A stretch of DNA of 64,000 nt, taken from contig JAEUHC010000006.1 of NCBI GenBank assembly GCA_016794785.1, positions 62,001-126,000 of the forward strand, in the 5' to 3' direction. The stretch is from Opitutaceae bacterium (GTDB lineage Bacteria; Verrucomicrobiota; Verrucomicrobiia; Opitutales; Opitutaceae). Position numbers and translations under genes: made by a program. The notes under the pieces were generated by a model, which searched no databases, had not been told where the DNA came from, and was given only the letters and a program-made list of their open reading frames with translations. Of the stretch, positions 1-64,000 are shown piece after piece. Every line of letters starts with the position of its first letter. Within the stretch, counting starts at the first letter, position 1.

Positions 1-819
1 CATATCCACGCGCATGCCGGCGGCACCTTCCCAACCTATCAGACTGCTGCAAATTTTCTGACGTTACGCGAGAAACCGGTGCGTTGGTCCGCCGAACATC
101 TCGAGCGTTGTGTTATTTCCGCGTGCGGAGAGATCAATTGGGGCCGGCTGTTCCTAGGCGACACGAAAGAACGAGATCGGTTGGAAACACATCTTGAAAA
201 CCTCACGCGTGAAGAGACGACCATCAAGCGCAAGCTGGCCAATGCCGCGCAGGCTGTGCTCGAAGGTGGCGCATTTGGCGAGGCGGTGAAGGCTCAAGTG
301 CAGCAGCTCGAACAGAGGCTTCAGGAACTGCGAAAGGAGCGTGACGACGCACACGATCAGTTGGACGGCTTGCGGCGCGCGAGCGCTTCAACGCCGACCA
401 TGTTCACTCGCGAAATCCCGTCGGACCCGGCATTGCGCGAAAAGCTTCGCGCCGAGCTTCGCGCTGTTCTCACCAAAATCAAGGTGTGGCCGGATGGCCG
501 GACTCCCGACTCCTTCTGGAAACTGCCTCTCGAATACGCGACGGAATCCGCACCCAAGACCGCGAAGCTTTCGATCTCGCAAGGGAGAGTTATGGGAGCC
601 GTGCGTCTCTTCTTCAAGAATGGGCGCGCCATTACCGCCTATGTCACCTTTGTCCGGGTCGGAAAGAATCGAGCCGCAAATATCATCGCTTTCGCCAATC
701 CCCTTGGAATGACGATCGACGAATGGGACCGGATTTGCTCGTTCGCGGGAATGTATGCCGAAGATAAGGAATCAGCGTCTCATGTTCCCACAACGGGTCG
801 CTCGGCCTCGACGAAGTAA
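1..819 (+). CDS. Large serine recombinase, C-terminal part (5' end outside window)
   Basis: The frame is open from base 1, so the gene starts upstream; the GTG at 79 is probably not the real start. The visible protein has a D-W/N-W segment (EINWGRLFL) followed by a long charged coiled coil with many L-E-x-R/K repeats, then a basic beta-rich tail. In large serine recombinases this arrangement follows the recombinase and zinc-ribbon domains, and the coiled coil regulates integration direction. The catalytic N-terminal domain is not in the window. The gene converges on the methylase/helicase remnant and may mark an insertion beside it. An unrelated coiled-coil protein is possible but less likely. 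Confidence 0.6.
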   Translation, partial: HIHAHAGGTFPTYQTAANFLTLREKPVRWSAEHLERCVISACGEINWGRLFLGDTKERDRLETHLENLTREETTIKRKLANAAQAVLEGGAFGEAVKAQVQQLEQRLQELRKERDDAHDQLDGLRRASASTPTMFTREIPSDPALREKLRAELRAVLTKIKVWPDGRTPDSFWKLPLEYATESAPKTAKLSISQGRVMGAVRLFFKNGRAITAYVTFVRVGKNRAANIIAFANPLGMTIDEWDRICSFAGMYAEDKESASHVPTTGRSASTK

Positions 820-949
820 ACACCCGCACACCGTCCCTACCTCGCAGCATCATCACAATCTCATGTCCGACTGGAATGGCCGCCTTTAGCTCTGCGATGC
901 GCGACGTGGCAATTCGCTCGTCGCCGGCTAATGCAGAGGTGGCAGACAC
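820..949 (-). pseudogene. Possible 5' fragment of a small gene cut by the recombinase insertion
   Basis: A GTG start lies 16 bases after the stop of the methylase/helicase remnant, on the same strand. The first ~45 codons (containing ELKAAIPVGHEIVMMLRG) look protein-like. After that the frame runs into sequence antisense to the serine recombinase and loses coding character. The simplest reading is a downstream operon member truncated where the recombinase gene now ends. I do not recognise the family. Confidence 0.25.
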
Positions 950-965
950 GATCTACGGCGTGGCT

Positions 966-2425
966 CTAGGCGGACAGTTTCATTGCCGCCTTACGCCGCA
1001 CGATGCGAGCGGGCGCGGGACACCTCGCAGTTCCGATCGTCTCGCCTTCCGGCGGGATCACTGGCGGCCTTGCCGCCACTGCCGGTTTTGCGTCGTGTGG
1101 CACGAACACATCGCCCTCCCGTCGATAGCCTCGCGGGACGGCGTGCTTGAGATTGTATTCGTCGACCGCGAGCGCCGATACGGGTTTGCGGGCGCGCAGT
1201 GCTTCGAGGACCAGGGCATCGTTGGCCGGTCCGAGCCCGGCGGCGCGATACTCCTTCGGCGACATCAGCTCTGCCGGCTTTTGCGAAACAGTCTCGGCGG
1301 AAGCTTCCGCCTCGCTCTCTACCTCCGTGGGTGCCGGCTGCTCCGTTGCCGTGGCATCGACTTCGGTGCTGGCGTCGGCCGCCTGTAGGCTCGATGCCTG
1401 ATTTTTCGTGAGATCGAGCTGTTTCACGAGTTCGGCCTGCCGGGCCGACAATTCCCGGTAGCGCTCCTCGTGCTCGAAGACGCCACCGACAGCTTTGGTC
1501 AGGCTAGCGAGGTCAGTTTTCGTCCGGGCCAGCTCCTCCCGCGTGCGAACCAAATGATCATCGATGCTGCGGGCGGCGTGCTCCAGCGAACTCACGATCC
1601 CGACGGGCGACGGCGACACGTTGGCCGGATATTCCATCGCACCGGCGAGGTTAACCTTTTCGGGATTGGTGGAGCGGAACGTGACCTTGAAACCGGCCAA
1701 ATCGCCGAGCACGGCGTTGGCGGGACGCCCGTGCGGGTGATCTGTGCGGTGATCCTCGATCGCGAGGACAAGCGCGCCGCCCGCCTTCACGCGCTCGGTG
1801 AACGTCTGCTTCTCGACCGTCATCGTGAACTTCTCCCCGCTGGTATCGCGCCGCGTCTTCAAGTCCTGCTCCAGCCCCGCGACGTGTTTTTCGAGCCGCG
1901 TGGTATCGCTTTCGAGCATGCGGATGCGGTTACGGTGTGAGAACTGTGTCTCCTGATGCTCGGAACGCAGGCGGGACAACCGCATCACCTCCGAATCCAC
2001 CTTCGCCTTTTCGATGACGAGCGGATTGCCGGATGCGATCGCCTTCACCTCGGCGTAGGTGAGCGCGGGCGAGTCGAGATCCTCGATGCGGCGCGCGGTC
2101 GAGTGCCCTGTCATCACCTGCGCGATGAATTTCGCCTTGGTTTCGAGGAGTTGCCACGAATAGGCATCGAAGCTGCCCTCGGTCACGTAGCGGAGGATGC
2201 GCACCGTGGCATTGGTATTGCCCTGCCGCCGGATGCGCCCCTCGCGTTGCTCGATGTCCGCGGGGCGCCAAGGGGCGTCGAGATGATGGAGCGCGACGAG
2301 CTTGGCCTGCACGTTGGTGCCAGCTCCCATTTTCTGCGTGGAGCCGATGAGCACGCGCACTTTGCCGGCCCGAACATCTTTGAAAAGCGCAGCCTTCGCT
2401 GCGTCTGAATCGTGATCCTGAACTA
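966..2425 (-). pseudogene. C-terminal half of split N6-methylase/SNF2 helicase
   Basis: This is the second RecA-like helicase domain and tail of the protein whose N-terminal part lies at 5970-10025. It carries the helicase motif V/VI region: VLIGSTQKMGAGTNVQ and QREGRIRRQGN (Q-x2-GR-x-x-R). A coiled coil and a conserved tail follow. The gene is interrupted by the 3.5-kb recombinase element. At the element border the open frame continues into the inverted repeat, which supplies an in-frame ATG with a good Shine-Dalgarno. Separate translation of this half is therefore possible. Intact relatives on plasmids and ICEs are single very long proteins. Confidence 0.8.
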
Positions 2426-2488
2426 ATGTGGAGGCGGCAAAAATGTGGAATGGACGGACAGTGGTCATGTTTCTCCTCTGGGAACGGT
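2424..2488 (+). repeat. Left 65-bp terminal inverted repeat of the RIT-like element
   Basis: The 65 bases are identical to the reverse complement of 5903-5967. The match decays just inside (about 14 of 22 bases) and is near-perfect for a few bases outside (CTGAA). ATGTGG occurs twice in the arm, so it may be a recombinase-binding half-site. On the outward (minus) strand it holds AGAGGAGAAAC directly before an ATG. Confidence 0.95.
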
Positions 2489-2541
2489 TCTCTTCACTTA
2501 ACATTACTGAAGCCTTTCCGATCGGGCCGTGGAGTGGCGGG

Positions 2542-4848
2542 GTGAATACCACCCCGCTCATCAATCGATTGTTCGTTCGTCGTGCCGGCCATCATTTGGC
2601 CCGGCCGATTTTTGGCTCCGTGTTGGAGAGTTTCGCTCAGCGGCTCGTAGCCCAAGGATACCCCCCGCAAACCATCCAACGGGTAATCGGACGTCTGTGG
2701 CGCGTAGAGCAGTGGCTGCAACAACGACAACGGATAACCTCGTTGCGTGATTTGTTGCCAGAAACGTTGGCAGCGGCCGTGGCGCACTTTCGTCCCCGCG
2801 ACGCAGACATGCCGGCGGCCGTGCGGGCGATGGGCCGGTTTCTCCAAGAACGGGGGCTCATTCCGCAGGCCAAACCCGGCCCGTCTTCGCGCTCGCACTT
2901 GGAAGCGCAACGATTCGGCGCCTACTTGGTTGAGGTTCGGGGCCTGGCGGGGAGCACGGTCGATACGCACATCCGCCGCGCAATTCGGTTCCTGGAGTTC
3001 ATGCACTTCAACCGGCGACCAAGGGCGCTGTGCGGGTTGCGCCGCGCGTCGATCGAGGAGTTCGTGCGACAACTCGCGCGCACGAACACTCGTTTCAGTT
3101 TGGCGCAGGCACTCGCGTCGCTGCGCGGATTTCTGCGGTTCGAGTTTTCTCAAGGCAAGCTGGCTTTGCCACTGCACGAGCAAATCGACCGACCGCGGCT
3201 GTATCTGGGCGAACGGCTCCCGCGTGCGGCCGCCCGAACGGATGTGACGCGGTTGCTGCGCTCGATCGACCGATCGCGACCCGCGGGTATGCGCGACTTC
3301 ACGATCTTGTATCTGGCCGCCACCTACGGTCTGCGCAGCGACGAACTGCGACAGATGCGCGTGGAGGATATCGATTGGCGCAACGCCGTGCTGAACGTCC
3401 AACAGGCAAAGACACGGCAAGTGCTCCGCTTGCCGTTGCTCGACGAGGCGGGTGAGGTGCTGGCGCGGTATCTCCGGCTCGGCAGACCGCGGACTGGGTT
3501 GCGGCAACTTTTCTTTCTCGCCCGCGCACCGATGAAGCCCCTTGGGCGCAGCTCGGTCGGTGCCATGCTTCGCCGCCGGCTCCGGCGCAGCGGTTTGTCC
3601 TCGCCGAACTTTAGCATGCATGGGCTGCGCCACTCGGTGGCAGTGCATCTGGTGCGCCGCGGAGTGCCGATAAAATCGATCGGCGACGTGTTGGGCCATC
3701 GCGACCTGACGAGCACCGCGGTGTATCTCAGGCTCAACGTGGATGATTTGCGCACGGTGGGCCTGCCGGTCCCCCGCGCAGAGCAAGCGGCGAGGTTGTT
3801 GGGCCGCGATTGGGGAGATCGCTTCCCGCGTATCCGTAATTTGGATGGGCCTCGACCACGCGTCGTGACCTGCTTCCGCAGCGGCTTTGCTCGGAGTCTC
3901 AATCGCTACTTGGAGAACCGTCGCACGCTGGGCCGCGGCTGTCGGGTCATCGAGTCGGTGTTGCGCCTGTGGGACACCTTCTTGCACGACCGCCAAGGCG
4001 ATGCTCCGAAGGTTTCGCACGAACAACTCGATGCTTGGTTGAAGTCGCAGGCGGCATTGGCCCCAGTCACCCGCCGCCAACGCCTGCTGATCGTGCGCAG
4101 GTTTCTCGTCTATCATCGTCGCGAACACCCGCGCACCTTCGTGCCGGATTGGGCTACCTTCCCGAAAGCGACACCGCCACGGCACCCGCGACTGGTCTCT
4201 CCGAAAGAGATGGGCGTATTGCTGGCGACCGCGACGCAGTTGGGAAGAACCAACGCCAATCCGTTGCGCGCTGGGACAATCCGCCTCGGCCTGCTGCTGC
4301 TGTTCTGCTGCGGGCTGCGGCAGCAAGAGCTGTTGCGCCTGCAAATTCGGCATTACGACCGGGTGGAACGACTCCTCCGAATCGAGGCGACGAAGTTTCA
4401 TAAATCCCGCCTGGTGCCGTTGCCGACGTCGGCCGCAAAAGCACTCGAAACGTTTCTCGCGCTCAGGCGCGCGCGCGGTCTTCCGTATGCGCCCGGCAGC
4501 TTCCTGCTGTGGAGCGGCGAAAGGCGGCCCGAGGCTGGCTACACCGGCACCGGCCTCACCAGATCGTGGCAACAGCTCTGCCTCAGTGCCGGTGTCTTGG
4601 ACGAGAGAGGCCGTGCGCCCCGATTGCACGACCTGCGCCACAGCTTCGCCGTCGAAGCCCTCCATCGCTGGTATGCCGCGGGGATCAATCCTCAAGCACG
4701 GCTCGTTCATCTCGCGACGTATCTCGGGCACGTTAATCCATCCTCCTCGCACTACTATTTGCAGTTCACGCCGGCGCTTCGTGCAGCCGCGAGTGAACGG
4801 TTCGAGCGATCGTTCGGAATCCTTGCTTCGAACGGAGGTGCCCGATGA
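2542..4848 (+). CDS. Double tyrosine recombinase (RitA-RitB-like fusion)
   Basis: The 768-residue protein contains two full tyrosine-recombinase units. Unit 1 has Arg265 (YGLRSDEL), His360-x2-Arg363 (HGLRH), His386 (GHRDLTS) and Tyr395. Unit 2 has Arg593 (CGLRQQEL), His696-x2-Arg699 (HDLRH), His730 (GHVNPSS) and Tyr738/739. Each unit has its own SAM-like core-binding domain. I chose the GTG at 2542, which has GGAG 7 bases upstream; the longer open frame from 2428 only reads through the terminal repeat. The 3' end overlaps the next recombinase gene by ATGA. RIT elements normally encode RitA and RitB separately (about 400 and 330 residues), so this is a fusion with both active sites intact. Confidence 0.9.
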   Translation: MNTTPLINRLFVRRAGHHLARPIFGSVLESFAQRLVAQGYPPQTIQRVIGRLWRVEQWLQQRQRITSLRDLLPETLAAAVAHFRPRDADMPAAVRAMGRFLQERGLIPQAKPGPSSRSHLEAQRFGAYLVEVRGLAGSTVDTHIRRAIRFLEFMHFNRRPRALCGLRRASIEEFVRQLARTNTRFSLAQALASLRGFLRFEFSQGKLALPLHEQIDRPRLYLGERLPRAAARTDVTRLLRSIDRSRPAGMRDFTILYLAATYGLRSDELRQMRVEDIDWRNAVLNVQQAKTRQVLRLPLLDEAGEVLARYLRLGRPRTGLRQLFFLARAPMKPLGRSSVGAMLRRRLRRSGLSSPNFSMHGLRHSVAVHLVRRGVPIKSIGDVLGHRDLTSTAVYLRLNVDDLRTVGLPVPRAEQAARLLGRDWGDRFPRIRNLDGPRPRVVTCFRSGFARSLNRYLENRRTLGRGCRVIESVLRLWDTFLHDRQGDAPKVSHEQLDAWLKSQAALAPVTRRQRLLIVRRFLVYHRREHPRTFVPDWATFPKATPPRHPRLVSPKEMGVLLATATQLGRTNANPLRAGTIRLGLLLLFCCGLRQQELLRLQIRHYDRVERLLRIEATKFHKSRLVPLPTSAAKALETFLALRRARGLPYAPGSFLLWSGERRPEAGYTGTGLTRSWQQLCLSAGVLDERGRAPRLHDLRHSFAVEALHRWYAAGINPQARLVHLATYLGHVNPSSSHYYLQFTPALRAAASERFERSFGILASNGGAR

Positions 4849-5861
4849 ACACCGATCGTCGCTCTATATTGGCGCACTCTCTGCACGTTTTCCTCGTCGA
4901 GTATTTGCCCCGCCAACGCGCGATCAGCCCGCACACGGTTCACAGCTATCGCGACAGCCTCAAACTGCTTCTCCAGTTCGTCGCCGGGAAGAAGGGCGAC
5001 GTGAGCGCGCTGAAGCTCGAAAATCTTTCCGTCGATCGCGTCACGGCGTTCCTGCTGCATCTGGAAAAAGTCCGGAAGAATCGCGCGAGCACGCGCAACG
5101 TCCGGCTGAGCGCCATCCACAGTTTCTTTCGCTATGTCGGAACGCAGCATCCGGAGTATGTCGAGCAGACGCAGCGCGTGCTGGGCATCCCGTTCAAGCG
5201 CGTGGAAACCCGAGCCATCCAGCACGTGGAGTTTTCCGAGTTGCAGACCATGCTCGACGGCATCGACCGCTCGCGGGCCGACGGCCGCCGTGACTTTGCT
5301 CTCTTGAACGTGTTGTTCAACACCGGCGCCCGGGTGAGCGAGATCGTCGGGCTGATGGCGGCGGATCTGCGGCTGGCGGGACCGCCGAGCGTGCTGCTGC
5401 GGGGCAAAGGTCGCAAGGAACGCGTTTGCCCCTTGTGGCCCGCCACCGCGCGATTGCTCCGCGAACACCTGGAAGAACGCGGCATCACACCGGATCGACC
5501 CGAAACGGTTTTCCGCAATCATCGCGGTGCTCCGCTGACGCGGTTTGGCATTCGCGTTATCTTGCGAAAGCACGTCCAACGAACTGCCGTCGCTATGCCG
5601 AGCCTGGCGCACAAACGAATCCATCCCCACAGCCTCCGACATGGCACCGCTGTCCACCTCCTGCGCGCCGGCGTTGATTTGAGCTCGATTGCGCACTGGC
5701 TCGGTCACGCGAGTCTCAACACCACGAACAAGTATCTGGCTATGGATCTCGAAACCAAACGGGAGGCCTTGGCAAAAACCGAGCCGCTGCTGAACCGTCG
5801 GAAACATCCGGCCGCGTGGCGACGGGATCCTGGTCTCATCAAATGGCTGGAGAGCCTGTAA
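4845..5861 (+). CDS. Tyrosine recombinase, third member of the RIT-like set (RitC-like)
   Basis: The 338-residue protein has a SAM-like N-terminal core-binding domain and a catalytic domain with GARVSEI (Arg), HSLRH (His/Arg), GHASLNTTNKY (His and nucleophilic Tyr). It is XerC/D-like in length and motif spacing. The start ATG overlaps the TGA of the fused recombinase gene, so translation is probably coupled. It ends about 40 bases before the right inverted repeat. It presumably acts with the two domains of the upstream protein on the terminal repeats. Confidence 0.93.
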   Translation: MNTDRRSILAHSLHVFLVEYLPRQRAISPHTVHSYRDSLKLLLQFVAGKKGDVSALKLENLSVDRVTAFLLHLEKVRKNRASTRNVRLSAIHSFFRYVGTQHPEYVEQTQRVLGIPFKRVETRAIQHVEFSELQTMLDGIDRSRADGRRDFALLNVLFNTGARVSEIVGLMAADLRLAGPPSVLLRGKGRKERVCPLWPATARLLREHLEERGITPDRPETVFRNHRGAPLTRFGIRVILRKHVQRTAVAMPSLAHKRIHPHSLRHGTAVHLLRAGVDLSSIAHWLGHASLNTTNKYLAMDLETKREALAKTEPLLNRRKHPAAWRRDPGLIKWLESL

Positions 5862-5902
5862 TACACGCGAAGAAATGAGGCCAATAATGTGGAATGAAGC
5901 AG

Positions 5903-5967
5903 ACCGTTCCCAGAGGAGAAACATGACCACTGTCCGTCCATTCCACATTTTTGCCGCCTCCACATTA
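5903..5967 (-). repeat. Right 65-bp terminal inverted repeat of the RIT-like element
   Basis: It is identical in inverted orientation to 2424-2488. Just inside it, a further inverted copy of ATGTGGAATG (5887-5896) faces the copy within the repeat. Outward on the plus strand it carries AGAGGAGAAAC and an ATG that opens a short frame (about 27 codons) into the flank. Confidence 0.95.
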
Positions 5968-5974
5968 ATTCAGC

Positions 5975-5992
5975 TATGTGTAGCTACACATA
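5975..5992. repeat. 18-bp perfect palindrome outside the right repeat
   Basis: TATGTGTAGCTACACATA is a perfect palindrome between the right inverted repeat and the resumed host coding sequence. No counterpart is seen at the left end. It could be part of the element end, a binding site, or remains of an earlier insertion. Confidence 0.85.
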
Positions 5993-8900
5993 ATTGGATA
6001 AACTGAACCTCCGCCGCGGGGACACCCTGCGTGACAAGCTTCGTTTTGATGTCGTGATACACGGACAATCCGTCGCGCAGCTTGTGCGGCGTGGAGAGAT
6101 CGCAGAAGACGAGTTGAGTGAGACGCTGCGCACTGGTCTCGCGCCAGACGGAAAGGATTTCCCGGACGGCTTGGTTGGTTTTACTTTCCGGGTGATCGGG
6201 GGCGCGCGGCACCATCAGCCGGAGATCGAGCGCGGCTTTGCGGCCCTCGCCGGTGATCTTGAGCATGTTGTCGTCCCGCGGATCGACCTTGCTGTTTTTT
6301 ATTTTCTCGGCCCGGGCGGCGAGCGATGACACAAACTTCCTCAATTCAGGCGTGGTCGGCGCCTGCACGATGCGGGGCTTGCCGCCTTCGAGCGCCGGCA
6401 CCGGGAGTTTGAGCATGTCGGCCGTCTGAATGTCGGCGACCTGCCGAAACGTCTGCATGAGCTCCGGCACATTGACGAACCGCGCGAAGCGCGTGTTTAG
6501 CCGGTAGCCGGCGCCGTCGGGGGCGAGTTCCATCGCCGTCACCGTCTCGCCGTAGGTTGCCGCCCACGAATCGAAGTGCACGAGTTTCTGTCGCCGCAGC
6601 GTCTCCATCTGGAGGTAGCGCTGCATGGTGAACATTTCGGCCATCGTGTTCGTGATGGGTGTGCCCGTGGCGAACACGACCCCGCCGCCGCCATTCACGC
6701 GCTGCACGTGCTGCACTTTCAGAAACATGTCGAAGGCTCGCTCGGAGGCCGCCTGTGGCAGCCCGGCGACGCGCGTCATTTTTGTAACGTAGAAGAGATT
6801 CTTGAACGCCTGCGCCTCGTCGACGAACAGCCGGTCGATGCCGAGTTCCTCGAAGGTCAGGGTGATGTCCTTCTTGTGCGCGGCTGAGAGGCCGAGGATT
6901 TTCGATTCGAGCCGTTTCTTCGCGCGTTCGAGTTCCTTGACCATGCGGCTTCCGCGCGAGCCGTCCGACTGCTCGCGGATGCACTGCTCCAGTTCCCCGA
7001 GCTCGCCGGTGAGGAAGTCTTTTTGCGCCTTTTCGGAAAGCGGCAGCCGCTCGAATCCAGAATGGGTAACGATTACCGCATCCCAATTTCCCGTCGCAAT
7101 GCGTCCCATCAGTTCTCGTCGTCGCGAGCTTTCAAAATCCGCTTTGCCCGCGACGAGGATGTTGGCCCCGGGATACAGCATCAGTAACTCGGACGAGAAC
7201 TGCCCGAGCATGTGATTCGGGACGACGTAGAGCGGCTTCCGGGCGAGCCCGAGGCGCTTCAATTCCATCCCGGCGGCGGCCATCGTAAAGGTCTTGCCTG
7301 CGCCGACGACGTGGCCGAGGAGCACGTTGGGCGACTGGACGATGCGCCACACCCCCGCTTTCTGATGCGTGCGCAACGTGATGTTGGGACTCGCGCCGGG
7401 GAGCGTGAGATGATCGCCGGAAAAGGTGCGCAGCCGGTGGTGGTTGAATTCCCGGTTGTAGAAACCCACGAGCCGTTCACGCCGGGCGTCGTCCTCCCAC
7501 ACCCACTCGGCGAAGCGGTCTTTGATCTTCTGTTGCTTCTCCCGCGCGCTCTCGGTGGCACCGGGGTTGATGACGGGTTTCCCCTCGGCGTCGGCATCGT
7601 AGACGGTCGGTGTGCGGAGGTTGAGCGCGTCCTCAATCAACTCGTGTGCAGGCGCGCGTTCCGTGCCCCATTCGGATAGGTTGGCGGCGTGGCTTTTGAC
7701 CCCTGGCCCGGCCTCGACCGACCAGAGCCCGAGCGTCGGCACATGGCGGACGTCGAGTTCGCGTGCGGCGCGCGGTGGTAGGCGAAGCAGCTCCCGCGCG
7801 AAACGCCCCACGTCGTCCACCGGAATCCACACCGCGCCAAGCCGCGCGTCGATTTCGGTGGCCTTGAGTTCGTCGGGCTGCACGCCCCGCAGCGCCTCGA
7901 CGTTCACGCGAAATGTAGGATCCGCCTCGGCGGCGCGTTCGGCGATCGTGAGTTTCTCGCGCACGTTGCCGGAGAGATACTCGTCGTCGGTCTCCCACCG
8001 GCGCGTCACGGGGTTCAGGTAGATCGTGCCCGCCAGTTCCGCCAAAAACTCCGACTCTGGTTTTCCGAGCAGCGTCCCGATGTGCTCCAAATCGACTCGG
8101 CCTTTCTCGCTCAACGTCACGAGGAGCGCCTCTTTGGCGGTGCCGGCCTGAACCACCGGCGCCCGCGGCTGGATGGTCCGCTCCCGAAAGATTGCGGTCT
8201 TCGCCGCGGTGCCGGTGTCCTCGCTATAGTTTTCGAGCGAGAGCAGCAGCGGCAGATCGGGATCGCCGGCGAACGCACGCAGGTTGGTTGACTCGGAGAT
8301 CGGACCGAATTGCCCGACGAAGTAATCGTAGTCCTGGTTGAGCCGGAAGCGCGCCGCGGCGATTTCCTGGTCGCTGCGATTCTCGACCTGCTTGCGCAGG
8401 CACTCGCGCGCGGCGTCGCGCACGTAGATCAGGCGGCGAATGCGTCGCGCGGTCTGCGCGGAAACATCCGTGAGCAGGACCAGCTCCTCGCCCTCCCGGC
8501 GCGCGACGCCGCCCCCGCCTTCCTCGGTGAGCACGTAGGCGTTGGGCTTCACGCCGGGCGGCACGGGAATCGAGCGACGAATTTTGGCCGACTCCTCAGC
8601 TGAAAGCGGCTGGTAGATTCCGACGGGCAGCGTGCCGACGACCGCGGCGAGCGCCTCGCCGAGATCGCGGCCGTCGTCGGCGAGCCTGACGGACTCGCGA
8701 CCATACATGCCGTGCTCCGTTTGCTCCATGCGGCCGAGGAGCATCGCGGGATGGGCGTGAAAGTATTCGTTGAGGAAGATCGGTGTTTCCTCGGAGATGG
8801 GCCGGCTCTCGGCCCACGCGGGCCCGGACGGAGCTTCCCGCGGGTCGCGCTTCCGCAGGATCACGATGTCGGCGGTGACCTCCGTGTTGGCGTTCTTCTT

Positions 8901-9706
8901 GAACGCCGTGCACGGCAGACGAATGGCGGCCACGAGGTTCGCCGACTTCGCGACGGTTTCGCGGAAATACGGATATTGTTTATCCATCGTTCCGCGCGAC
9001 GTGATGAATGCCAGCAGCCCGCCCGGCCGCACTCGCTCCAGCGCCGCGACGAAAAAGTAGTCGTGGATATGAAACTTCCTTGGATTGAGTTTCGGATCGT
9101 GAGGCGCGTAGTCGCCGAACGGCACGTTGGAAATCGCGAGGTCGAACGAGTTGGTCGGCAACGAGGCGTCCTCGAACGGCGTCGTGCGGATCAGCGCGTC
9201 CGGATACAGCATCCGCGCCAGCCGCGCTGTGACCGGATCGATTTCGATGCCGGTGAGATCGGAGCCCGTCCGCATCCCGTCGGGCATCAGACCAAAAAAG
9301 TGCCCGAGACCGCAGGCAGGCTCGAGCACGCGCCCTTGCTTGAAACCGAGCCGCTCGACCGCCGTATACATCGCGCGGACGACTGTCGGCGACGTGTAGT
9401 GGGCGTTGAGCACCGTGGCCTGCGCGGAGCGGTATTCGTCGGGGAGCAGGAGTTCTTTTAGCGTCGCCTGCTCCGACTTCCATTTCGGAGCTTCCGCGGC
9501 CGTGGCAAAAACCTGCGGCAGGCCGCCCCAGCCGGTGTATTTGACGAGCGCGGCCTTTTGCTCGGGCGTAGCGATGCGCGCGTTGCCCTCGATCTCGCGC
9601 AGCAGTCGGATGGCTGCGACGTTTTGCTCGAACTTCCGGCGCAGTGAACCCTCGCCAAGTTCGTCGGCGTCGGTGATCCGGTAGTTGGACTGATTCCGCG
9701 CAGGCG

Positions 9707-9967: not shown

Positions 9968-10028
9968 GAGAGGAAGGCCCGAAGAGATCGAGTTGGGCCG
10001 GATGATCGGTGGTTCTCTTGGCCATCGT

Positions 10029-13101: not shown

Positions 13102-13118
13102 ACTTTAGGCTAGCCTGT

Positions 13119-13428: not shown

Positions 13429-13441
13429 TAGCTTTATCGGG

Positions 13442-47908: not shown

Positions 47909-47923
47909 TCCGACCAGTTTCAT

Positions 47924-48847: not shown

Positions 48848-48890
48848 ACCGGCCGCCACGCGTTCTTCCCTCCGAACTTCCTTTTCCCGC

Positions 48891-52114: not shown

Positions 52115-52132
52115 CCTTCGACGCCAGCCCCC

Positions 52133-53429: not shown

Positions 53430-53453
53430 CCGGGACCTCTAGCGAGGCCCGGG
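53430..53453 (+). terminator. Stem-loop after the rightward operon
   Basis: CCGGGACCTC-TAGC-GAGGCCCGGG forms a long GC-rich hairpin with one mismatch, 53 bases after the MFS stop. It lies between convergent genes. There is no T-run, so intrinsic termination is uncertain. A weaker hairpin (GCCGAG-CAGTT-CTCGGC) sits nearer the stop. Confidence 0.45.
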
Positions 53454-56728: not shown

Positions 56729-56757
56729 GGCGGAAAAAATTAATGCGGCCATCGGGT

Positions 56758-59700
56758 TCAAAACGTGCCTTTCACTCCGAGGCCGACGGCAATCCCATAT
56801 TCCTTGGACACCGTGTATTTCGCATAGTCGGGCGTGGCGGAGCCGTATTGCAGCGTCCGTTCCGGCACATTGGAGAGATTGTTCACACTGCCCACGAGCG
56901 TGACCCGCCGCGAAATCTGATACGACAGGCTCAGGTCGAGCCGCGTGCTCGCCGGGAAATAGGCGAAGGCATCGGGCCCGGCGGCGGGCACGGCATTGCG
57001 CTTGTTTTCGCCGCGGTAGTTCCAACGCGCGCTGGCCACCATTCGTTTCCGGTGAAACGTAAGGCCCCAATTTGCCGAGCGCGGCGTGAAACTGGTGAAG
57101 TCCGCCAGAGGGCCGCCCGCGAGCCGGAGGTAGGTGCCATTGGCAAACACAGTGAAGTGCTGCCCCCAGCGGCCGAGCGCGCGGAGCGACTGGCGGAAGT
57201 CGAACTCGGCTCCGCTGATCCGCGCGTCGCCGGCGTTGAACTTGGTGTTCAGATTCCAATTGAGATACTGTGATCTCAACCCGAGCTCCTCGAGATCGGC
57301 CGCCGTGGCGACGCGCACGCCCGTGCCGAAGAAATCCTTGATTTCCTTCACGAACACGCCCCCGCTCACGATGCCGCCGCTCTGCGTGTAATATTCGGCC
57401 GAGAGATCGAAGTTGTCGGCCGTCCAAGGCTTCAACGCCGGGTTGCGCACGGTGAGCGTGCCGCGGATCAGGTCGGGATTGGCACTGATATCCTGCTCGG
57501 TGAGGTCGTTCTCGCTGATCACTGTGTTGGGGATAATGTCGCCGAAATTCGGCCGGGCATAGGTGCGGGCATAGGCTGCGCGCAAGAGCAGGTTTTCTTT
57601 CAGACTATATGTTAGGTGCAGGCTCGGATAGTAGCCGTCATAGGCTCGCTCCGCCTTGTAACCGCGCTCTTGGCGCGTAAGCCTCAATTCCTCGATCGAG
57701 CCCACCGCGCCGGCATCAGGCCGCCTGATGCGAGCACCCGCGGCAGTGCGGGCGAACGTGCCGTCGGCATTCCGCACGAATACGGCACCGGGATCGAAAA
57801 CCGGCCCCGCGCCGCGATCACGCGTCCGCTCGAAGCGCACGCCGGCCAGAACATTCAGGCGGTTGCGCAGCAGCTTGGCCTCGGATTGGAAATAACCGGC
57901 CGTGACCGTCTCCTCGATTCGCTCGGAAGCCGAGATGGTGTTGATCGCCTCCGTCACGGCCTGCGCTGGCGTCTGCACGAAGAGGGCGGGAGTGGCCGCG
58001 TAAGCGTTCCACGCGCGGTGCGCCGAATACCACGGAGCTCCGCGAAAGCCGAAGTGATCGTTCTGTCCGCGAAACGCCTGCGCCGCAAACGGCGCGACGG
58101 GATCGGGCGTGCCGGTGTTGCCGTCCGGTCCGGCATACGTCAGGGGCCGCGTTTCCGGCCTGCTGTCCACCGTGATCATTTTCTGAAATCCGCCGGCTTG
58201 CACCGCGGCGGGAAACGGGAAAAGCGAGAGCCGGCGCTTCACGTCGAAATTGCCACTGCGAACTTCCGAGCGGTTCACGTCTTTCACCAGCTGGGTCGCG
58301 GTGTTGAGCCGGTAATTGTTGAGATCGTAGAGATCGATCGGGCGTTCGCTGTTGTCGAAGACCTGAACGTTGCCCGGACTCATATCGTCGATCGAAGTGA
58401 GCGCCACGCGGATGGCCGGAGCGGCCGACAACGTGGCCGACATCGCCGAGAAGACGTTGGGCACACGCGAGCGCTCGGAATCTGCGCCGTTCACGCCGGC
58501 GTCGATTTTCCAGCGACCGTCGTCGTAGCGATAGGTCAGGTTGGCGCTGTCAATCGCCCGCTCGCGCACGACTGTCGCCGAGGTGAGCGTGACGGCACCG
58601 CGGCCGGTCGCGCCTTGCGTCGAGGTCGCGCCGAACGTCAGCGGCACGCCGCCCGCCACCGCCGGCGAGCCAGTGGTGCCGGCGTTGAAGACCCACGTGT
58701 TGGCGCCTTGATTGCTCGTGCTGCGGTTGCGCTGGAGCGAGAGCGAGAGCACGGAGTGCGGCGTGACGCGCCAGTCAGCCTTGAAGGTGAACGACGTGCG
58801 CGTGAGATTTTTCGGAGAATGCGCCAGCGTGAACTGCTGGAGAAACGGTCTGTCAAACGAAGCGCCCGTCTGCGTGCCACCGGAGTTGAACACCTTCGTT
58901 GCGATCGCCGTGTCGCTGTATTTGTCGCTGTGCAGCCCTGAAACGACGATACCAAAAGTCTTCCGGATGGGCAGCGTATAACTGAAATTTGCACCCGGAC
59001 GCGTTTTGTAGTCGCGGCTGTCGTCCACGGACTGCGGTGTCCTGCGCAGATGCAGGTGGTCGCCATTGCCGATGAGATTGATCCCATAATTGAATTGCGG
59101 CTTGCTCCGCTCGAAGGCGCTCTTGCTCACCATATTCACGGTCCCCGAGAGCGAGTCGGCCGGTGACGACGGCGTGGGCACCTTTGTGACTTCCAGCCGC
59201 GAGACGGCGTCGAGCGCCAGCATGACAATATCGGTGTTGCGCGAAGCCCCGTCGTTGGCTGTCGCGATCGGCGAGCCGTCGGTCAAGTAGGCCGTCCTGC
59301 TCCCGCCGGCGCCGCGAATCGAAACGCCCTGCACCTCGTTGCCATCCTCCTCAAGCGCGATGCCGGGGAGAAATTTGAGGAACTCACCCACGCTGCTGCC
59401 GAGCACGTCACCAAACGAGTCTGCGGCCATCACGTTCTTGAGGTTCGGCGCGAATCGCTGCTCGTTCAGCGCGAGCGCTTGATTGTCGGCTTCCTTTTCG
59501 GATGCGACCAAGAACGGGTCGAGCTTCATGACGTCACCACTCGCGCCGTAACGACCGGCGCTCGTAAGTTGGAAATCGCGAGCGAGCGCCTCGCCCGGCA
59601 TGAGTTGCACCGCGGCGGTCGCGGCGTCGAGTCCGGTGTAGAATACCTCGAGCACGATATTTCCGGAAGGCACGACGGGAAGCCGGTAGGTGCCGCTCTG

Positions 59701-60198
59701 ATCGGTGAACGCGACGAGGTCGGTGCCGCGCACGGCGACGCGGGCGTTGTTGAGGTATTGGCCGGTGGCGACGTTTTGCACGCGGCCGGAGACGCTGCCG
59801 GAACCCGTGGCGCGCGGAGCGGGAGCCGGCGGAGCCGATATAGCGTCACTACCGTTTGGGCCGGCGGTTTCTGGGCGGATGGCGAAGGCGCCGGTCGAAA
59901 CATCGTGCGTCACGGTGAGCCCTGTGCGGGCGACGAGCAGATCGAGGGCCGCGCGCGCGGTATGCTCGCCGGCGAGGACGTTAGTCCGCACGCCGCGGAC
60001 GGCCGCAGGGGAAAACACGATCTCGCGGTCGGCCTGTTCGGCGAAACGCGCTAGCGTCTGCGCAGCGTCGCCGGCCGGAATATCGAAATGACGCTTGATT
60101 TCGGTGGCGGCGAAAACCGTCACCACAACAGCGACGGACAGGAGGGCATAACGAACCAGTCGGGGGAAGTAGGATGAAGGCATGAATTTGGGGTTCAT
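56758..60198 (-). CDS. TonB-dependent transducer with N-terminal STN signalling domain
   Basis: The ~1146-residue receptor has a signal segment, a secretin/TonB N-terminal (STN) domain (~40-115: FDIPAGDAAQTLARFAEQAD, ALDLLVARTGLTV), a regulatory Ig domain (~135-215: GSVSGRVQNVATGQYLNNAR), a plug (NEQRFAPNLKNVM, VGEFLKFLPGIALEE) and a large barrel ending YGIAVGLGVKGTF. STN receptors pass ligand binding to an anti-sigma factor; FecR- and FecI-like genes lie directly upstream. Starts at 60198 or 60183 are both possible. It heads the pair with the FAD oxidoreductase. Confidence 0.93.
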   Translation of the reverse strand: MNPKFMPSSYFPRLVRYALLSVAVVVTVFAATEIKRHFDIPAGDAAQTLARFAEQADREIVFSPAAVRGVRTNVLAGEHTARAALDLLVARTGLTVTHDVSTGAFAIRPETAGPNGSDAISAPPAPAPRATGSGSVSGRVQNVATGQYLNNARVAVRGTDLVAFTDQSGTYRLPVVPSGNIVLEVFYTGLDAATAAVQLMPGEALARDFQLTSAGRYGASGDVMKLDPFLVASEKEADNQALALNEQRFAPNLKNVMAADSFGDVLGSSVGEFLKFLPGIALEEDGNEVQGVSIRGAGGSRTAYLTDGSPIATANDGASRNTDIVMLALDAVSRLEVTKVPTPSSPADSLSGTVNMVSKSAFERSKPQFNYGINLIGNGDHLHLRRTPQSVDDSRDYKTRPGANFSYTLPIRKTFGIVVSGLHSDKYSDTAIATKVFNSGGTQTGASFDRPFLQQFTLAHSPKNLTRTSFTFKADWRVTPHSVLSLSLQRNRSTSNQGANTWVFNAGTTGSPAVAGGVPLTFGATSTQGATGRGAVTLTSATVVRERAIDSANLTYRYDDGRWKIDAGVNGADSERSRVPNVFSAMSATLSAAPAIRVALTSIDDMSPGNVQVFDNSERPIDLYDLNNYRLNTATQLVKDVNRSEVRSGNFDVKRRLSLFPFPAAVQAGGFQKMITVDSRPETRPLTYAGPDGNTGTPDPVAPFAAQAFRGQNDHFGFRGAPWYSAHRAWNAYAATPALFVQTPAQAVTEAINTISASERIEETVTAGYFQSEAKLLRNRLNVLAGVRFERTRDRGAGPVFDPGAVFVRNADGTFARTAAGARIRRPDAGAVGSIEELRLTRQERGYKAERAYDGYYPSLHLTYSLKENLLLRAAYARTYARPNFGDIIPNTVISENDLTEQDISANPDLIRGTLTVRNPALKPWTADNFDLSAEYYTQSGGIVSGGVFVKEIKDFFGTGVRVATAADLEELGLRSQYLNWNLNTKFNAGDARISGAEFDFRQSLRALGRWGQHFTVFANGTYLRLAGGPLADFTSFTPRSANWGLTFHRKRMVASARWNYRGENKRNAVPAAGPDAFAYFPASTRLDLSLSYQISRRVTLVGSVNNLSNVPERTLQYGSATPDYAKYTVSKEYGIAVGLGVKGTF

Positions 60199-60292
60199 TC
60201 GGCAAGACACGCGGCGGTGGCGTTTCCATTAGCCGACAATGAACTATTTTCCCGAGCCCCTGATCCTGCGCTGAGGCTCCCGTCGCCCTACC

Positions 60293-61348
60293 CTAGCGGG
60301 ACAGCCTCAGGAGGACTTCGTCTTCGTTTCCCGGCTGAACCTTCACCCCGAAATCGGAAGCGAGCAGGCGCAGGAAGCCCTCGACGTTGTCGGAGCGAAA
60401 GCGCGCGGTGAGTCGCAGTCCTTGCAGCGCGGGTTCGCCGCCGAGGCGAAGCGTGATCGGGTTGTGCCGGTTAAACTCCTTGAGGATCGCCGCCAGCGGC
60501 TCGTCGCTGAACGAAAGCATGCGCGGCTGCCAAGCCAGCCGACGCGACAGATCATCGGGGGAAAGCGTGCTCACAGCCGGCCCACTGTCGCCGACGGTGA
60601 GCGGAACGACCGCGCGCTGGCCAGCATCGACGGTGGGCGGCAGCGTGTCGGGCGAGGCTTGGTCGCCCACGACGGCCACGCGGCCTTCCGTCACGATGAC
60701 TTCGACCGCGCTCTCGCCGAGGCGGACGTTGAACGCTGTGCCAACGGCGCGCACGGACACACCCGAGGAGACGACGACGAAGGGCCGAGTAGCATTCTTG
60801 GCCACATCGAAGGCGGCTTCGCCGCGTTCCAGTCGCACCCGACGTTCACCTGGCAGGAACTCCACGGTGACGACGGCCCCGCGATTGAGCCGCACGGTCG
60901 AGCCATCCGCCAGCACGCGCTCCTCGATGGGATTCACGAGGGCGAGGGCGGCGGAGACATTGGGCGGAATCTCGCGCGAGGCGGGCGGACCCGGCCGGAA
61001 AGACCAGATGGCGAACGCCACGGCCGCCGCCGCGGCGAGGGGCGCAGCGACCCAGGCAAAGCGCCACCGGGCGGGGCGTCGAGCGTGCGGGGCGGCGGGA
61101 GCCAGCAAATCCGGATCGGGCAGCGTTTGGACGGAGGATTGCAAGCCGGCGAGCCGGTCAAACGCCTCCCACGCGCGGCGCTGCCGGGACATTGCGACCG
61201 AATGGCGAGGATCGGTGGCCAGCCAGTGCAGAAAGGCGTCCTGTTCCTCGGGCGACAGGCCACGGTCCTGCCGCATCACCCATTCGGCGGCGGTGGCGGC
61301 GAGGGCTGTGCCCGGCGACGAAGCGGCGGAATCGGGCGACGGGTTCAT
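60293..61348 (-). CDS. FecR-family anti-sigma factor / sensor
   Basis: The 351-residue protein has an N-terminal cytoplasmic DUF4880 region (~18-60, AEWVMRQDRGLSPEEQDAF), one membrane helix (~98-116), a periplasmic FecR domain (~145-245, VLADGSTVRLNRGAVVTVEF) and a C-terminal STN-like DUF4974 segment (~275-345). It holds the sigma factor until the STN receptor signals. The ATG overlaps the sigma gene stop (ATGA). The 94-base gap to the receptor has no gene. Confidence 0.93.
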   Translation of the reverse strand: MNPSPDSAASSPGTALAATAAEWVMRQDRGLSPEEQDAFLHWLATDPRHSVAMSRQRRAWEAFDRLAGLQSSVQTLPDPDLLAPAAPHARRPARWRFAWVAAPLAAAAAVAFAIWSFRPGPPASREIPPNVSAALALVNPIEERVLADGSTVRLNRGAVVTVEFLPGERRVRLERGEAAFDVAKNATRPFVVVSSGVSVRAVGTAFNVRLGESAVEVIVTEGRVAVVGDQASPDTLPPTVDAGQRAVVPLTVGDSGPAVSTLSPDDLSRRLAWQPRMLSFSDEPLAAILKEFNRHNPITLRLGGEPALQGLRLTARFRSDNVEGFLRLLASDFGVKVQPGNEDEVLLRLSR

Positions 61349-61884
61349 GGCCGGCGGGAGGGCGCGTCGCCATGGCGCTGGAAATATTCGGCGCACTTGC
61401 GAATGCCGATGGCACCTTGGACCTCGACGGTGTTTTCGGAGATGCCGAGCCGGACGGCGATTTCCTTTTGGGCGAGACCGTAGATTTTCCGCAGGGTGAA
61501 AACCTGGCGGCAGCGTTCCGGCAGGGATTGGATGGCGGCAATGAGCAATTGGATGTCCTCAGCGTGGGCGACCGATTCCGGCACGCCGACGCCACCATCC
61601 AAGACACTCGAGACATCCGTTTCCGTTAACGATTCCGGGTGGGTGTAGCCGCGGTGGCGCAGCGCATTGAGCGCCAGATTGCGGGCGGTGTGAAAAAGAA
61701 ACGCGCGTGGGCAGACGACCGTGCCCTCGGCGTGGGCGCGCAGAAGACGCGCGTGAGCCTCCTGCACGAGGTCTTCGAGGTCGGGCAGCTTCGGAAATTT
61801 CCCGTGCAGCCACGCCCGCAGCACAGCCTCGTGCGGCTGCACGTGCTCGGCGAACCATCGGGCTTGGTCGGTGTGGGGTGGCAT
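61345..61884 (-). CDS. ECF sigma factor (FecI-like)
   Basis: The protein (~179 residues from ATG 61884; an upstream TTG adds 14) has sigma region 2 (FPKLPDLEDLVQEAHARLL, FLFHTARNLALNALR) and region 4 (LPERCRQVFTLRKIYGLAQK, EIAVRLGISENTVEV). It should direct polymerase to the downstream receptor/oxidoreductase genes when released by the FecR protein. Together they form a cell-surface signalling module. Confidence 0.93.
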   Translation of the reverse strand: MPPHTDQARWFAEHVQPHEAVLRAWLHGKFPKLPDLEDLVQEAHARLLRAHAEGTVVCPRAFLFHTARNLALNALRHRGYTHPESLTETDVSSVLDGGVGVPESVAHAEDIQLLIAAIQSLPERCRQVFTLRKIYGLAQKEIAVRLGISENTVEVQGAIGIRKCAEYFQRHGDAPSRRP

Positions 61885-61950
61885 TGCGACGCGGCGGATG
61901 GCAGGAGAAAGGAACAGAGAATTCAAGCCTGACTAGTGGTCACCGCTAGC

Positions 61951-62353: not shown

Positions 62354-63271
62354 TCAGATTCTTCGAATATCCAACCCTCTTGCGCCTTGAGCCGTCGGCA
62401 CCAGCTCGCCGTTGGCCTCTCCCGAGGTGAACAACGCTCGCACCACAGCATCTTGCAGATGGCGTTCCACCGTTTGGCGCATGGGCCGGGCGCCGAGTTG
62501 AGGGTGAAAGCCCTCGCGGGCTAGAAACTCAAGCGCCGCAGCGGATACCCGCAGGTCGAAGCCCCCGCCGCGCAGTCGGGCGAGCTCCCGTTGCACTTCC
62601 AAGGCGCAGATTTCGCGCTGCACCGCCGGCGATAACCGCGCGAAGACCAACCTCTCGGCAATGCGTCCGATCAATTCTGGCCGCAGCTCCCGCTCAACGC
62701 AGCGCAGCACAGCTCGCTCGACGCCGGAGAGATTGGAGCGCTCCATGCGTATGGCATCCGCCGCGCCGATGTTGGACGTGAATCCGACGAAAAAGCGGCC
62801 GAAGCGCAGTGTCCGGCCGGTCGCAACAGTCGCGCGGCCGTGCCACAGAATTTGCAGGAAGACGTCCAGAACCAAGGGATGTGCTTTCTCGATCTCGTCG
62901 AAAATCACACTGCCTTCGGCGACCCCTGCCAATGCGTTGCCCAAAAGCCCGGGATCGTCGCGGTGCTCGCCGAGCAGCTTGTCGATGGCGGAGTCTCCCT
63001 GATACTCCGACATGTCGAACGAAACGAGATGGCCCGGACCGAACACATAGTCGGTGGCGCACGCAAACGTCTCGGTCTTGCCCGTTCCGGTCGGACCCAC
63101 CAACAGAAACGAGCCACGGGGACGGTCCGGAGACGTGACGCCTAGAGCGCCGCGCGCAAACGCCGCGGCAATCCGGGGCAGCACATGATCCTGCCCGCGG
63201 ATGTGGCGGCGCAGATGCGCCTCCAATCCGCGCAGGTGAGCGACAGGATCGATTGCGATTGCGTCGCTCAT
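62354..63271 (-). CDS. ClpA/ClpB D2-like single AAA+ ATPase of the transfer backbone
   Basis: The 305-residue protein matches only the second AAA+ ring of Clp/Hsp100 proteins: GPTGTGKT (59-66), FDMSEYQGDSAIDKLLG (pore-loop region), SVIFDEIEKAHP (Walker B, 121-132), and GARPMRQTVERHLQD (sensor 2). There is no N-domain or D1 ring, and no ClpP-binding loop that I can see. The ATG overlaps the stop of the RHH-like gene. A chaperone-like remodeller of relaxase, replication or DNA-bound complexes is inferred from context. Confidence 0.85.
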   Translation of the reverse strand: MSDAIAIDPVAHLRGLEAHLRRHIRGQDHVLPRIAAAFARGALGVTSPDRPRGSFLLVGPTGTGKTETFACATDYVFGPGHLVSFDMSEYQGDSAIDKLLGEHRDDPGLLGNALAGVAEGSVIFDEIEKAHPLVLDVFLQILWHGRATVATGRTLRFGRFFVGFTSNIGAADAIRMERSNLSGVERAVLRCVERELRPELIGRIAERLVFARLSPAVQREICALEVQRELARLRGGGFDLRVSAAALEFLAREGFHPQLGARPMRQTVERHLQDAVVRALFTSGEANGELVPTAQGARGLDIRRI

Positions 63272-63735
63272 CGGATCTTCGCTCTCCCGGCTTTTGATCG
63301 TCCGTCGGGGAATTCCTCCAGGTAACTTTCCACCAGCGGGGCCAGCGCCTCGATCGGCGGAAGTCGGCGCAGCACGGCGCGCAGAATGTAGCTTTCGTTT
63401 GCGCGGATGCCTTTCGTCGCGAGTTGGGCGACGACCCGATCCAACTTGGTCAGATCGGCCTCCGGTATGACGATCGTGACGCGCTCGGCAATATAGTCGT
63501 TCTCGCGCGGGCCGGCCTTGAGCGAGTCGTCTCGATGCTGGACGACTGCGAAGGCAAACAGATCCAGCTCCGACGAGACGTGGAGGAGGCAACGCACCAA
63601 CTTGGTCCGGTCCGATTGAACTTTCCGCTGCTCCAGGAGCGCGAGCGCATCGTTCATCACCTTCAGATCGGCGGGATAGAACGAGAAACTCGTGCGTGAC
63701 TCGCCTTGGCTGCGACGGGCCGGGGAAGACTTCAT
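63268..63735 (-). CDS. DNA-binding protein with two ribbon-helix-helix-like segments
   Basis: The 155-residue protein (from ATG 63735) has two similar units. TSFSFYPADLKVMNDALALL with LVRCLLHVSSEL (~18-60) and RVTIVIPEADLTKLDRVVAQ with NESYILRAVLRRL (~84-128) each fit a beta-strand, helix, turn, helix RHH layout. F-plasmid TraY is a known tandem-RHH regulator of transfer genes and oriT. The inverted TTGCATACG...CGTATGCAA pair lies 16-55 bases upstream of the ATG, so autoregulation is likely. It is coupled to the Clp-like ATPase gene. Confidence 0.65.
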   Translation of the reverse strand: MKSSPARRSQGESRTSFSFYPADLKVMNDALALLEQRKVQSDRTKLVRCLLHVSSELDLFAFAVVQHRDDSLKAGPRENDYIAERVTIVIPEADLTKLDRVVAQLATKGIRANESYILRAVLRRLPPIEALAPLVESYLEEFPDGRSKAGRAKIR

Positions 63736-63750
63736 GGTGCAAAGATGTAT

Positions 63751-63790
63751 TTGCATACGTTTTCTTGACAAGGCCGTTTTTCGTATGCAA
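63751..63790. promoter_or_regulatory. Inverted GCATACG pair between divergent genes
   Basis: TTGCATACG (63751-63759) and its inverse CGTATGCAA (63782-63790) flank a 22-base spacer. The spacer holds TTGACA on the plus strand (63765-63770) and TTGTCA on the minus strand, so both divergent promoters fall inside the pair. The motif recurs at the relaxase and HTH/ParA promoters. Confidence 0.6.
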
Positions 63791-63884
63791 TTGTAAGCCC
63801 AATGAAACGCACCGTCCTCGAAGCCCCTCTCGCGCACTTCCGGCTCAAAGCTCGCTGACCGGTCGACGTTCCCGCACCAATCGT

Positions 63885-64000
63885 ATGCTCATCCGCTTCA
63901 CATTCCCGCCCGTCGTTTGGCCCGCGCCGGTGCTGGCGCAGCTCCAAGCCCTGAAGGATGGCTTCGGCACCGCGCTCGCGCTCGTTTTCATGGTGGGCTT
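63885..64000 (+). CDS. Partial gene for a possible membrane protein, divergent from the RHH/Clp operon
   Basis: The ATG at 63885 opens a frame to the window end: a short N terminus with QLQALKDGFGTALALVF starting what looks like a membrane segment. It is transcribed away from the GCATACG pair. Its place suggests another transfer gene, but too little is visible to name it. A tiny frame at 63802-63858 upstream may be a leader or chance. Confidence 0.4.
   Translation, partial: MLIRFTFPPVVWPAPVLAQLQALKDGFGTALALVFMVG

Follow-up and report, generated by a model that had tools for sequence, protein, structure and literature searches.

Do sulfatase and TonB-dependent receptor genes that lie between two sets of conjugation genes travel with them as one mobile element, and where does such an element begin and end? 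The question is raised by a 64,000-nucleotide stretch of the genome of an Opitutaceae bacterium (hereafter the window), which corresponds to positions 62001-126000 of a 231,153-base contig, C16, in a genome of 6.12 Mb and 27 contigs. We consider it highly probable (about 0.9) that the window belongs to an integrative and conjugative element (ICE) of about 123 kb in the chromosome, with a swappable slot that holds a sugar-use island of sulfatase, TonB receptor and GH141-like (glycoside hydrolase family 141) genes. An earlier note on this DNA had proposed that a conjugative backbone is split by a cargo island and that the whole forms a single mobile element, and this is borne out by the boundaries, the empty site and the related elements described below. 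Genomes of the family used for comparison are labelled G0xx or G1xx and 36 named related loci L113-L148; coordinates without a contig name are those of the window.

An element integrated in clpB

One integrated element of about 123.2 kb, C16:60943-184192, encloses the whole window (element coordinates -1057 to 122192 on the scale of the window, of which 1-64000 is the left half), as delimited by its attachment cores and by an empty site in the congener G054. An 11-bp core, TCCATGTATTC, is found inside clpB at both ends (C16:60943 and 184182), where the last 600 bp or so of this gene are duplicated (C16:60361-60959 and 183601-184199, 82.7% identical) and where both clpB similarities stop just beyond the core. 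The right copy is part of a full gene of 870 aa (C16:183497-186109) and the left copy is a remnant of 220 aa. In G054, where clpB lacks the element, the two flanks can be placed on a single contiguous clpB locus, and their alignments overlap across the core. As identity to G054 is 93% for the left remnant and 84.5% for the right 3' end, the left copy can be recognised as the displaced native end and the right copy as the one brought by the element, which thus supplies its own clpB 3' end so that clpB remains whole. Left-flank genes are found downstream of clpB, beside it or a few kb away, in 6 of the 9 congeners examined.

C16 carries an rRNA operon at its left end and three tRNA genes, and no terminal overlap was found when looked for, from which we conclude that it is a chromosomal contig. 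Chromosomal context on either side had been named in the earlier note as a reason to give up the single element; such context is present on both sides but outside the element ends, and as G054 joins those flanks on one locus, the claim stands.

The gene that begins about 60 bp inside the left attachment core (C16:61014-62819, plus strand) encodes a large serine recombinase of 601 aa with an N-terminal Resolvase domain (Pfam, 7.9e-17) and a Recombinase domain (7e-16), the organisation expected of this class, and is the likely integrase of the element. Its C-terminal part occupies window positions 1-819 and was overlooked at first reading (ORF, or open reading frame, 79-819), as were tyrosine recombinases at 2428-5861. 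With at most eight candidates scored per genome, 11 of the 150 family genomes, the own one among them, gave matches at E<=1e-40. The close homologues, in G095 (69%) and G087 (63%), belong to other genera, and each adjoins a clpB 3' remnant that contains the 11-bp core as well. The tyrosine recombinase ORFs were also considered as the ICE integrase and rejected, since the serine recombinase stands at the end of the element and the tyrosine pair splits a gene that is intact in G040.

TCCATGTATTC is also present at a junction in G167, and extra clpB 3' fragments were seen in the same genus (G162:C93, G167:C187, G153:C270 and C283); within the stretches examined, G162 and G167 gave no match to the serine recombinase of the element. 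Taking together the core in G095, G087 and G167 and the extra clpB 3' pieces in G162, G167 and G153, clpB looks like a recurrent insertion site, and other insertions seem to use it too.

A conjugative backbone in two halves

The left half of the backbone begins with a methylase/helicase gene, of which the C-terminal part (966-2417, minus strand) aligns to residues 1337-1711 of an intact 1718-aa homologue in G040 and the N-terminal part (5970-10025, minus strand; N6_Mtase 1.3e-4) is 65% identical to residues 2-1339 of the same protein. A TrwC-type relaxase-helicase follows (10399-13101, minus strand; TrwC 4.1e-74, AAA_30 1.1e-46), with homologues in related elements, and on the plus strand a ParA/MipZ-like ATPase (13797-14528; MipZ 2.1e-4) with homologues 61-69% identical in related elements, a small gene (14525-14998) with homologues at the same place, and a TrwB-type coupling protein (14986-16527; TrwB_AAD_bind 4.2e-10). 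In the right half, a Clp-like ATPase (ORF 62354-63802, minus strand; AAA_2 3.6e-24, ClpB_D2-small 8.3e-13), also with homologues in related elements, and a small TraY-like gene (63268-63657, minus strand), which together are placed at 62354-63657, precede the start of a type IV secretion system (T4SS) operon (63885-64000, plus strand), which continues to about 133.7 kb of C16 and is followed by type IV-pilus-like genes to about 145.2 kb. The gene calls agree with the earlier assignment of relaxase, coupling protein, ParA-like and methylase/helicase genes to the left and of Clp-like and TraY-like genes to the right, 'TraY-like' being a label given by eye: the longer ORF at that place matched no Pfam family, and relatives of the small gene adjoin or overlap the ATPase match in 23 of the 36 related loci.

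Extension along the contig, as the earlier note had recommended, brought to light the T4SS genes, the integrase and the attachment core. TraG P-loop, TrbI, T2SSE, T2SSF and secretin families were above the Pfam cut-off in the right half, and TrbL, DUF4141, T2SSB and N_methyl (an N-methylation motif) below it; in one scan of ten T4SS- and pilus-side proteins, three had no Pfam family. We thus have a bounded chromosomal insertion with an empty site, an integrase at one end, and a relaxase, a coupling protein and a T4SS, and by this gene content the element is a predicted ICE.

At E<=1e-20, and with at most five candidates scored per genome, 40 of the 150 family genomes (the own one among them) have a VirB4-type gene, compared with 11 of 150 for the recombinase, so that integration modules probably differ among related elements. 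The own genome has two further VirB4-type genes (58% and 42%). The 36 named loci with such a gene, a set from which records of the own genome may have been left out, carry titles of Verrucomicrobia type without exception, Opitutaceae or Opitutae in many cases, and their genera presumably all belong to the phylum Verrucomicrobia.

The methylase/helicase gene is severed by an insertion of about 3.5 kb (2424-5967, C16:64424-67967, plus strand) with inverted repeat ends of at least 30 bp, which carries two tyrosine recombinase ORFs, 2428-4848, with two catalytic-domain stretches, and 4845-5861 (Phage_integrase 1.9e-44 and 2.4e-31). Recombinase-in-trio (RIT) elements consist of adjacent, overlapping tyrosine recombinase genes within inverted ends; the insertion resembles them in its overlapping adjacent genes and inverted ends and differs in having two ORFs, the first with two catalytic-domain stretches. 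The pair also matched, at 44% and 31%, three adjacent recombinase-like ORFs in the slot of G043 (C3:88981-91889).

A cargo slot of variable content

The coupling protein and the Clp-like ATPase are convergent, and we defined the slot as the distance between their stop codons, which form its left and right edges respectively. In 14 elements with both edges readable, picked for reach and not as a census, this distance ranges from a 20-bp gene overlap to 50.3 kb. In L142 the two halves of the backbone join by that overlap (-20 bp). The slots measure 1.5 kb in G040, 2.0 kb in L114, 2.4 kb in L119, 3.0 kb in G009, 3.8 kb in L145, 5.8 kb in L126, 6.5 kb in L128, 6.8 kb in L116, 13.5 kb in G095, 30.7 kb in G005, 39.5 kb in G132 and 50.3 kb in G043; that of the present element measures 45.8 kb and is filled by the sugar-use island. 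Among the 36 loci, the Clp-like gene is reversed relative to the T4SS in 26, co-directional and close behind the coupling protein, without such a slot, in four, and without a match in six; L135 has a different gene order.

The fillings differ, as judged by Pfam on 20 proteins taken from longer lists and by eye for the remainder. G043 carries an RND (resistance-nodulation-division) efflux pump with a CusB/HlyD-type partner and DUF499 and DUF1156 genes; G005 an FhaC/ShlB-type transporter, a 4130-aa ORF, a porin and FecR; G132 polysaccharide synthesis genes including one of the GDP-mannose dehydratase family; and G122, the slot of which is cut by a contig end and was left out of the 14, a TonB receptor, an apiosidase-like enzyme, a DUF7133 protein, AraC and a xylose-isomerase-like TIM-barrel gene. 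Variable length and different contents between convergent backbone genes identify a cargo slot, of which the 45.8-kb island is one filling; the comparison with related genomes called for in the earlier note thus gave the same backbone with the slot empty or with other cargo. Repeats sought within each border region of the slot gave nothing convincing, repeats between the two borders not having been searched.

A control motif common to both halves

The earlier note had also reported a promoter motif common to both flanks, and this was confirmed: exact copies of TTTGCATACGTTT stand at 13118 and 63750, and a copy with two mismatches at 13413 (three matches against 0.50 expected; 1 of 100 shuffles reached three). 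The first and third copies lie in the divergent relaxase/ParA promoter region (13118-13425, plus strand), and a motif search of control regions located an inverted motif pair before the T4SS operon (63750-63788). The own control regions are 13101-13797 (relaxase-ParA) and 63640-63884 (T4SS). Comparing the two control regions of each element with one another, a common core, CATACG, emerged with a different preceding base. In counts that ignore the kinship of the elements, some loci being near-copies, this core occurs 34 times against 5.3 expected in the T4SS control regions (present in 15 of 23, own included) and 14 times against 3.1 in the relaxase-ParA regions (6 of 10), compared with 25 times against 36.2 expected in the T4SS-side DNA of 11 loci. 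A CTAAAA-S-CCATACG-like motif forms an inverted pair, its members 29-34 bases apart, in 14 of 21 T4SS control regions, and this pair is a predicted control element of the ICE family.

Against shuffles that preserve nothing but base content, the longest word shared by the two control regions of one element stood out in the present element, L114, L119 and G040 (0 of 200 each), the G040 word containing CATAAG and not the core CATACG; when the right region of the present element was widened, its word was reached by 2 of 200 shuffles. Shared words were not beyond shuffles in L137 (115 of 200), L145 (37), L142 (9), G095 (6) and G043 (3).

The sugar-use island

The left arm of the cargo (18746-28793, minus strand) encodes a DUF7133/cytochrome c/DUF6807 protein, a sulfatase with the activation motif CAPSR, a major facilitator superfamily (MFS) transporter, an NAD-binding dehydrogenase and a TonB-dependent receptor, and is followed by a LacI-family regulator (29074-30159, minus strand; LacI 5.2e-12, Peripla_BP_3 5.2e-20). 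The central block (30559-46661, plus strand) contains two TonB-dependent receptors, two BNR proteins with weak sialidase similarity, a GH141-like protein and three sulfatases, and the sugar catabolism block (47138-53377, plus strand) an RraA-like aldolase, an aldolase of the dihydrodipicolinate synthase (DHDPS) family, an FGGY kinase of which the nearest chain is named ribulokinase, a FucI-like isomerase (weak: Pfam matches below cut-off and no PDB match at E<=0.01) and an MFS transporter. Remnants of a TonB receptor-FAD oxidoreductase pair (53439-54603, minus strand), which share 35% and 38% identity with their counterparts in the intact pair next to them, lie before the right arm (55067-61926, minus strand), which encodes an FAD oxidoreductase, a TonB-dependent receptor, FecR and an extracytoplasmic function (ECF) sigma factor. 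An ECF-FecR pair was also seen beside the Clp-like gene in G095, G122, L120 and L122.

In total, the island has four sulfatases, four TonB receptors and a fragment of a fifth, two MFS transporters and two aldolase-like genes. All four sulfatases have the domain and the C-x-[PA]-x-R motif of type S1, and one of them (40824-42242, plus strand) matches subfamily S1_16 (E 2.8e-76), with a carrageenan S1_16 enzyme as its best solved match. The GH141-like beta-helix protein (37902-40814, plus strand) aligns to GH141 BT_1002 (E 1.9e-26) across residues 95-553 and retains an aspartate close to where the alignment stops, its numbering unmatched to D523 and D564, which are given as the essential residues in excerpts of PMC12786026. 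For a fucoidan degradation pathway, which calls for an endo-fucanase or fucosidase together with fucose catabolism, this protein, the weak FucI-like match and the FGGY kinase would be the candidates. As GH141 members include a fucosidase, a xylanase and an endo-fucanase (same excerpts), the GH141-like match does not fix the substrate. Judged from its genes, the island looks made for the use of a sulfated, possibly deoxysugar-rich glycan.

The word 'complete', which the earlier note had attached to the pathway, found no support: no SusD-type protein was found among the cargo proteins scanned with Pfam, so that on these proteins the island does not qualify as a SusC/SusD-type polysaccharide utilisation locus (PUL), and the three FGE-family (formylglycine-generating enzyme) genes of the host genome, likely sulfatase activators, are all outside the element, one of them at C16:192039. 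With the best three candidates scored per genome, only 4 of 252 family genomes have the GH141-like gene at E<=1e-60, namely the own genome and three from outside its genus. In the stretches fetched from those three other genomes, where a source of the island was sought, there was no matching run of cargo genes.

The island had also been said to have its own catabolic control, and LacI, AraC, FecR and ECF sigma factor genes do lie between the flanks, but AraC may be a gene of the ICE. The AraC-family regulator (16916-17866, minus strand; HTH_18 9.7e-19) stands beside an Asp/Glu-racemase-like gene (17930-18646, minus strand; Asp_Glu_race 3e-6, below cut-off). It has 14 other matches, four of them inside a slot (G005, G009, G040 and G043) and ten not placed, including one elsewhere in the own genome (C15); it is thus in the slot in every genome having both a match and a resolved slot, G095 and G132 having resolved slots and no match at E<=1e-25. 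The racemase-like and AraC genes are also paired in four other slots (L116, L119, L125 and G005), and in L119 they are the only genes matched in the slot. On this distribution, AraC and its neighbour may be an ICE accessory rather than a pathway regulator.

Weighing of the alternatives

Several observations weigh against an integrated, slot-bearing ICE. Three of the nine congeners did not show left-flank genes beside clpB (G155, none within the stretch; G162, stacked clpB fragments; G167, a contig end), and in G054 about 3.7 kb of separately inserted DNA lies between clpB and the flank gene that follows. The genome has 6.4% contamination, and 34 of the 36 named comparator loci are labelled as metagenome-assembled genomes (MAGs). 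The recombinase, with two close homologues besides the own copy, is in far fewer family genomes than the VirB4 gene. The motif core is missing from 8 of 23 T4SS and 4 of 10 relaxase-ParA control regions, and the own seven-base form GCATACG was found in none of 21 T4SS and none of five relaxase-ParA control regions of relatives. To these must be added the broken methylase/helicase gene and two plasmid records in PLSDB with distant (29%) VirB4 relatives.

That broken gene and the decayed TonB receptor-oxidoreductase pair in the cargo would fit an old ICE, now an immobile genomic island with a resident sugar-use cluster. We find this unlikely, because the scanned recombinase, relaxase, coupling protein and T4SS genes are open frames, those of them compared have near full-length homologues, the element ends and clpB are intact, and the GH141-like cargo gene is rare in the family.

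Derivation of the window from a large, unintegrated conjugative plasmid, similar to the fucoidan megaplasmid of Lentimonas, is far less probable still. A ParA-like ATPase and a conjugation backbone are present, and megaplasmid-borne fucoidan genes are described from Verrucomicrobia isolates in excerpts of PMC8857213, but C16 has an rRNA operon, three tRNA genes and no terminal overlap, the element ends on both sides within clpB and its site is empty in a congener, and a search of PLSDB gave only two records with a VirB4 match, both about 29% identical. Based on the contig ends, the rRNA and tRNA content and the PLSDB search, plasmid origin was rejected for this copy, assembly errors at both ends aside, and the plasmid precedent offered in the earlier note is not a model for an element integrated in the chromosome. 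That the island and the conjugative genes are unrelated elements adjacent by chance, which the window alone could not exclude with most of the T4SS half outside it, is hardly credible, given that a single pair of attachment cores on one contig encloses both halves, and that these join with a 20-bp overlap in L142, flank one slot in 14 elements and have a control motif in common.

Other genes of the right half

Beyond the window, the element carries defence genes at C16:152801-163018, namely a CBASS (cyclic oligonucleotide-based antiphage signalling system) pair, Wadjet JetABCD and a helical-REase-like (restriction endonuclease) protein; the PADLOC models matched were those of JetA, JetB, JetC and JetD and of a phospholipase-cyclase CBASS pair. 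Further to the right are an AbiV-like gene, identified by Pfam with no PADLOC match, and a KAP NTPase gene. A second RNA polymerase alpha gene (C16:167340-168548, 402 aa) has an N-terminal extension and is 78% identical to the chromosomal copy (C1:515359-516390). Inside the type IV-pilus-like cluster, C16:136558-140580 encodes a 1340-aa InlB-B-like repeat protein, a possible adhesin, with variable homologues in relatives.

Relation to known systems

Some of the mobile PULs of gut Bacteroidetes are carried on ICEs. The published sources below are cited from excerpts, and the comparisons apply to these. In gut Bacteroidetes, 47 PULs have been reported on mobile elements (PMC6907783). The present element is similar to these in being mobile DNA with a glycan-use cluster and TonB-dependent receptors, and differs in its Verrucomicrobia host, in the lack of SusD in the Pfam results, in its clpB site and in its slot between convergent operons; it also has a serine recombinase, whereas the excerpted survey lists serine recombinases in ICEs and prophages only for Firmicutes (PMC6907783). 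Lentimonas-type fucoidan megaplasmids, from the same phylum (PMC8857213), and other carbohydrate-active enzyme (CAZyme) plasmids (PMC6431674) are likewise mobile DNA with glycan-degradation genes or a whole pathway; by contrast, we have here an integrated element, the backbone of which has no close plasmid relative in PLSDB. With large serine recombinase elements (PMC10083194) it shares the Resolvase and Recombinase domains and a short core at both ends, and it differs from them in its whole-ICE cargo and in the restored clpB 3' end. In the open-access literature searched, represented by excerpts, we found no pairing of clpB with serine-recombinase integration and no description of this element family (including PMC11104534, PMC6907783, PMC8857213 and PMC12872454).

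Proposed mode of action and significance

We propose that the serine recombinase would insert the element at the 11-bp core in clpB, the boundary, core and empty site being observed; the element-borne clpB 3' end replaces the native end and keeps clpB whole. The relaxase, coupling protein and T4SS would move the element to new hosts. The two halves of the backbone, each transcribed from a divergent promoter region, share a control motif, and their 3' ends, which converge, may allow the slot to take up DNA without either operon being cut. Recipients would gain import, desulfation and growth on a sulfated, possibly deoxysugar-rich glycan.

A published case of mobile glycan use in Verrucomicrobia is, in the excerpts of PMC8857213, a megaplasmid; here the carrier is integrated and apparently conjugative. 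With its ends exactly placed, its site found empty, its backbone seen uninterrupted in a relative and several alternative fillings at hand, the element makes the spread of glycan diets directly testable, and the clpB site and its recombinase are defined well enough to be tried as a genetic tool in this group. On balance, we lean slightly towards a wider reading, in which an undescribed family of Opitutaceae ICEs would act as a general cargo carrier, with two co-regulated, divergently transcribed modules that converge on a neutral slot refilled repeatedly by whole functional islands, its serine-recombinase members inserting in clpB and replacing the 3' end of that gene; the fillings would then range over sulfated-glycan use, metal efflux, surface polysaccharide synthesis and two-partner secretion. 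If this is true, general-carrier ICEs would offer glycan diets a way of spreading among Verrucomicrobia.

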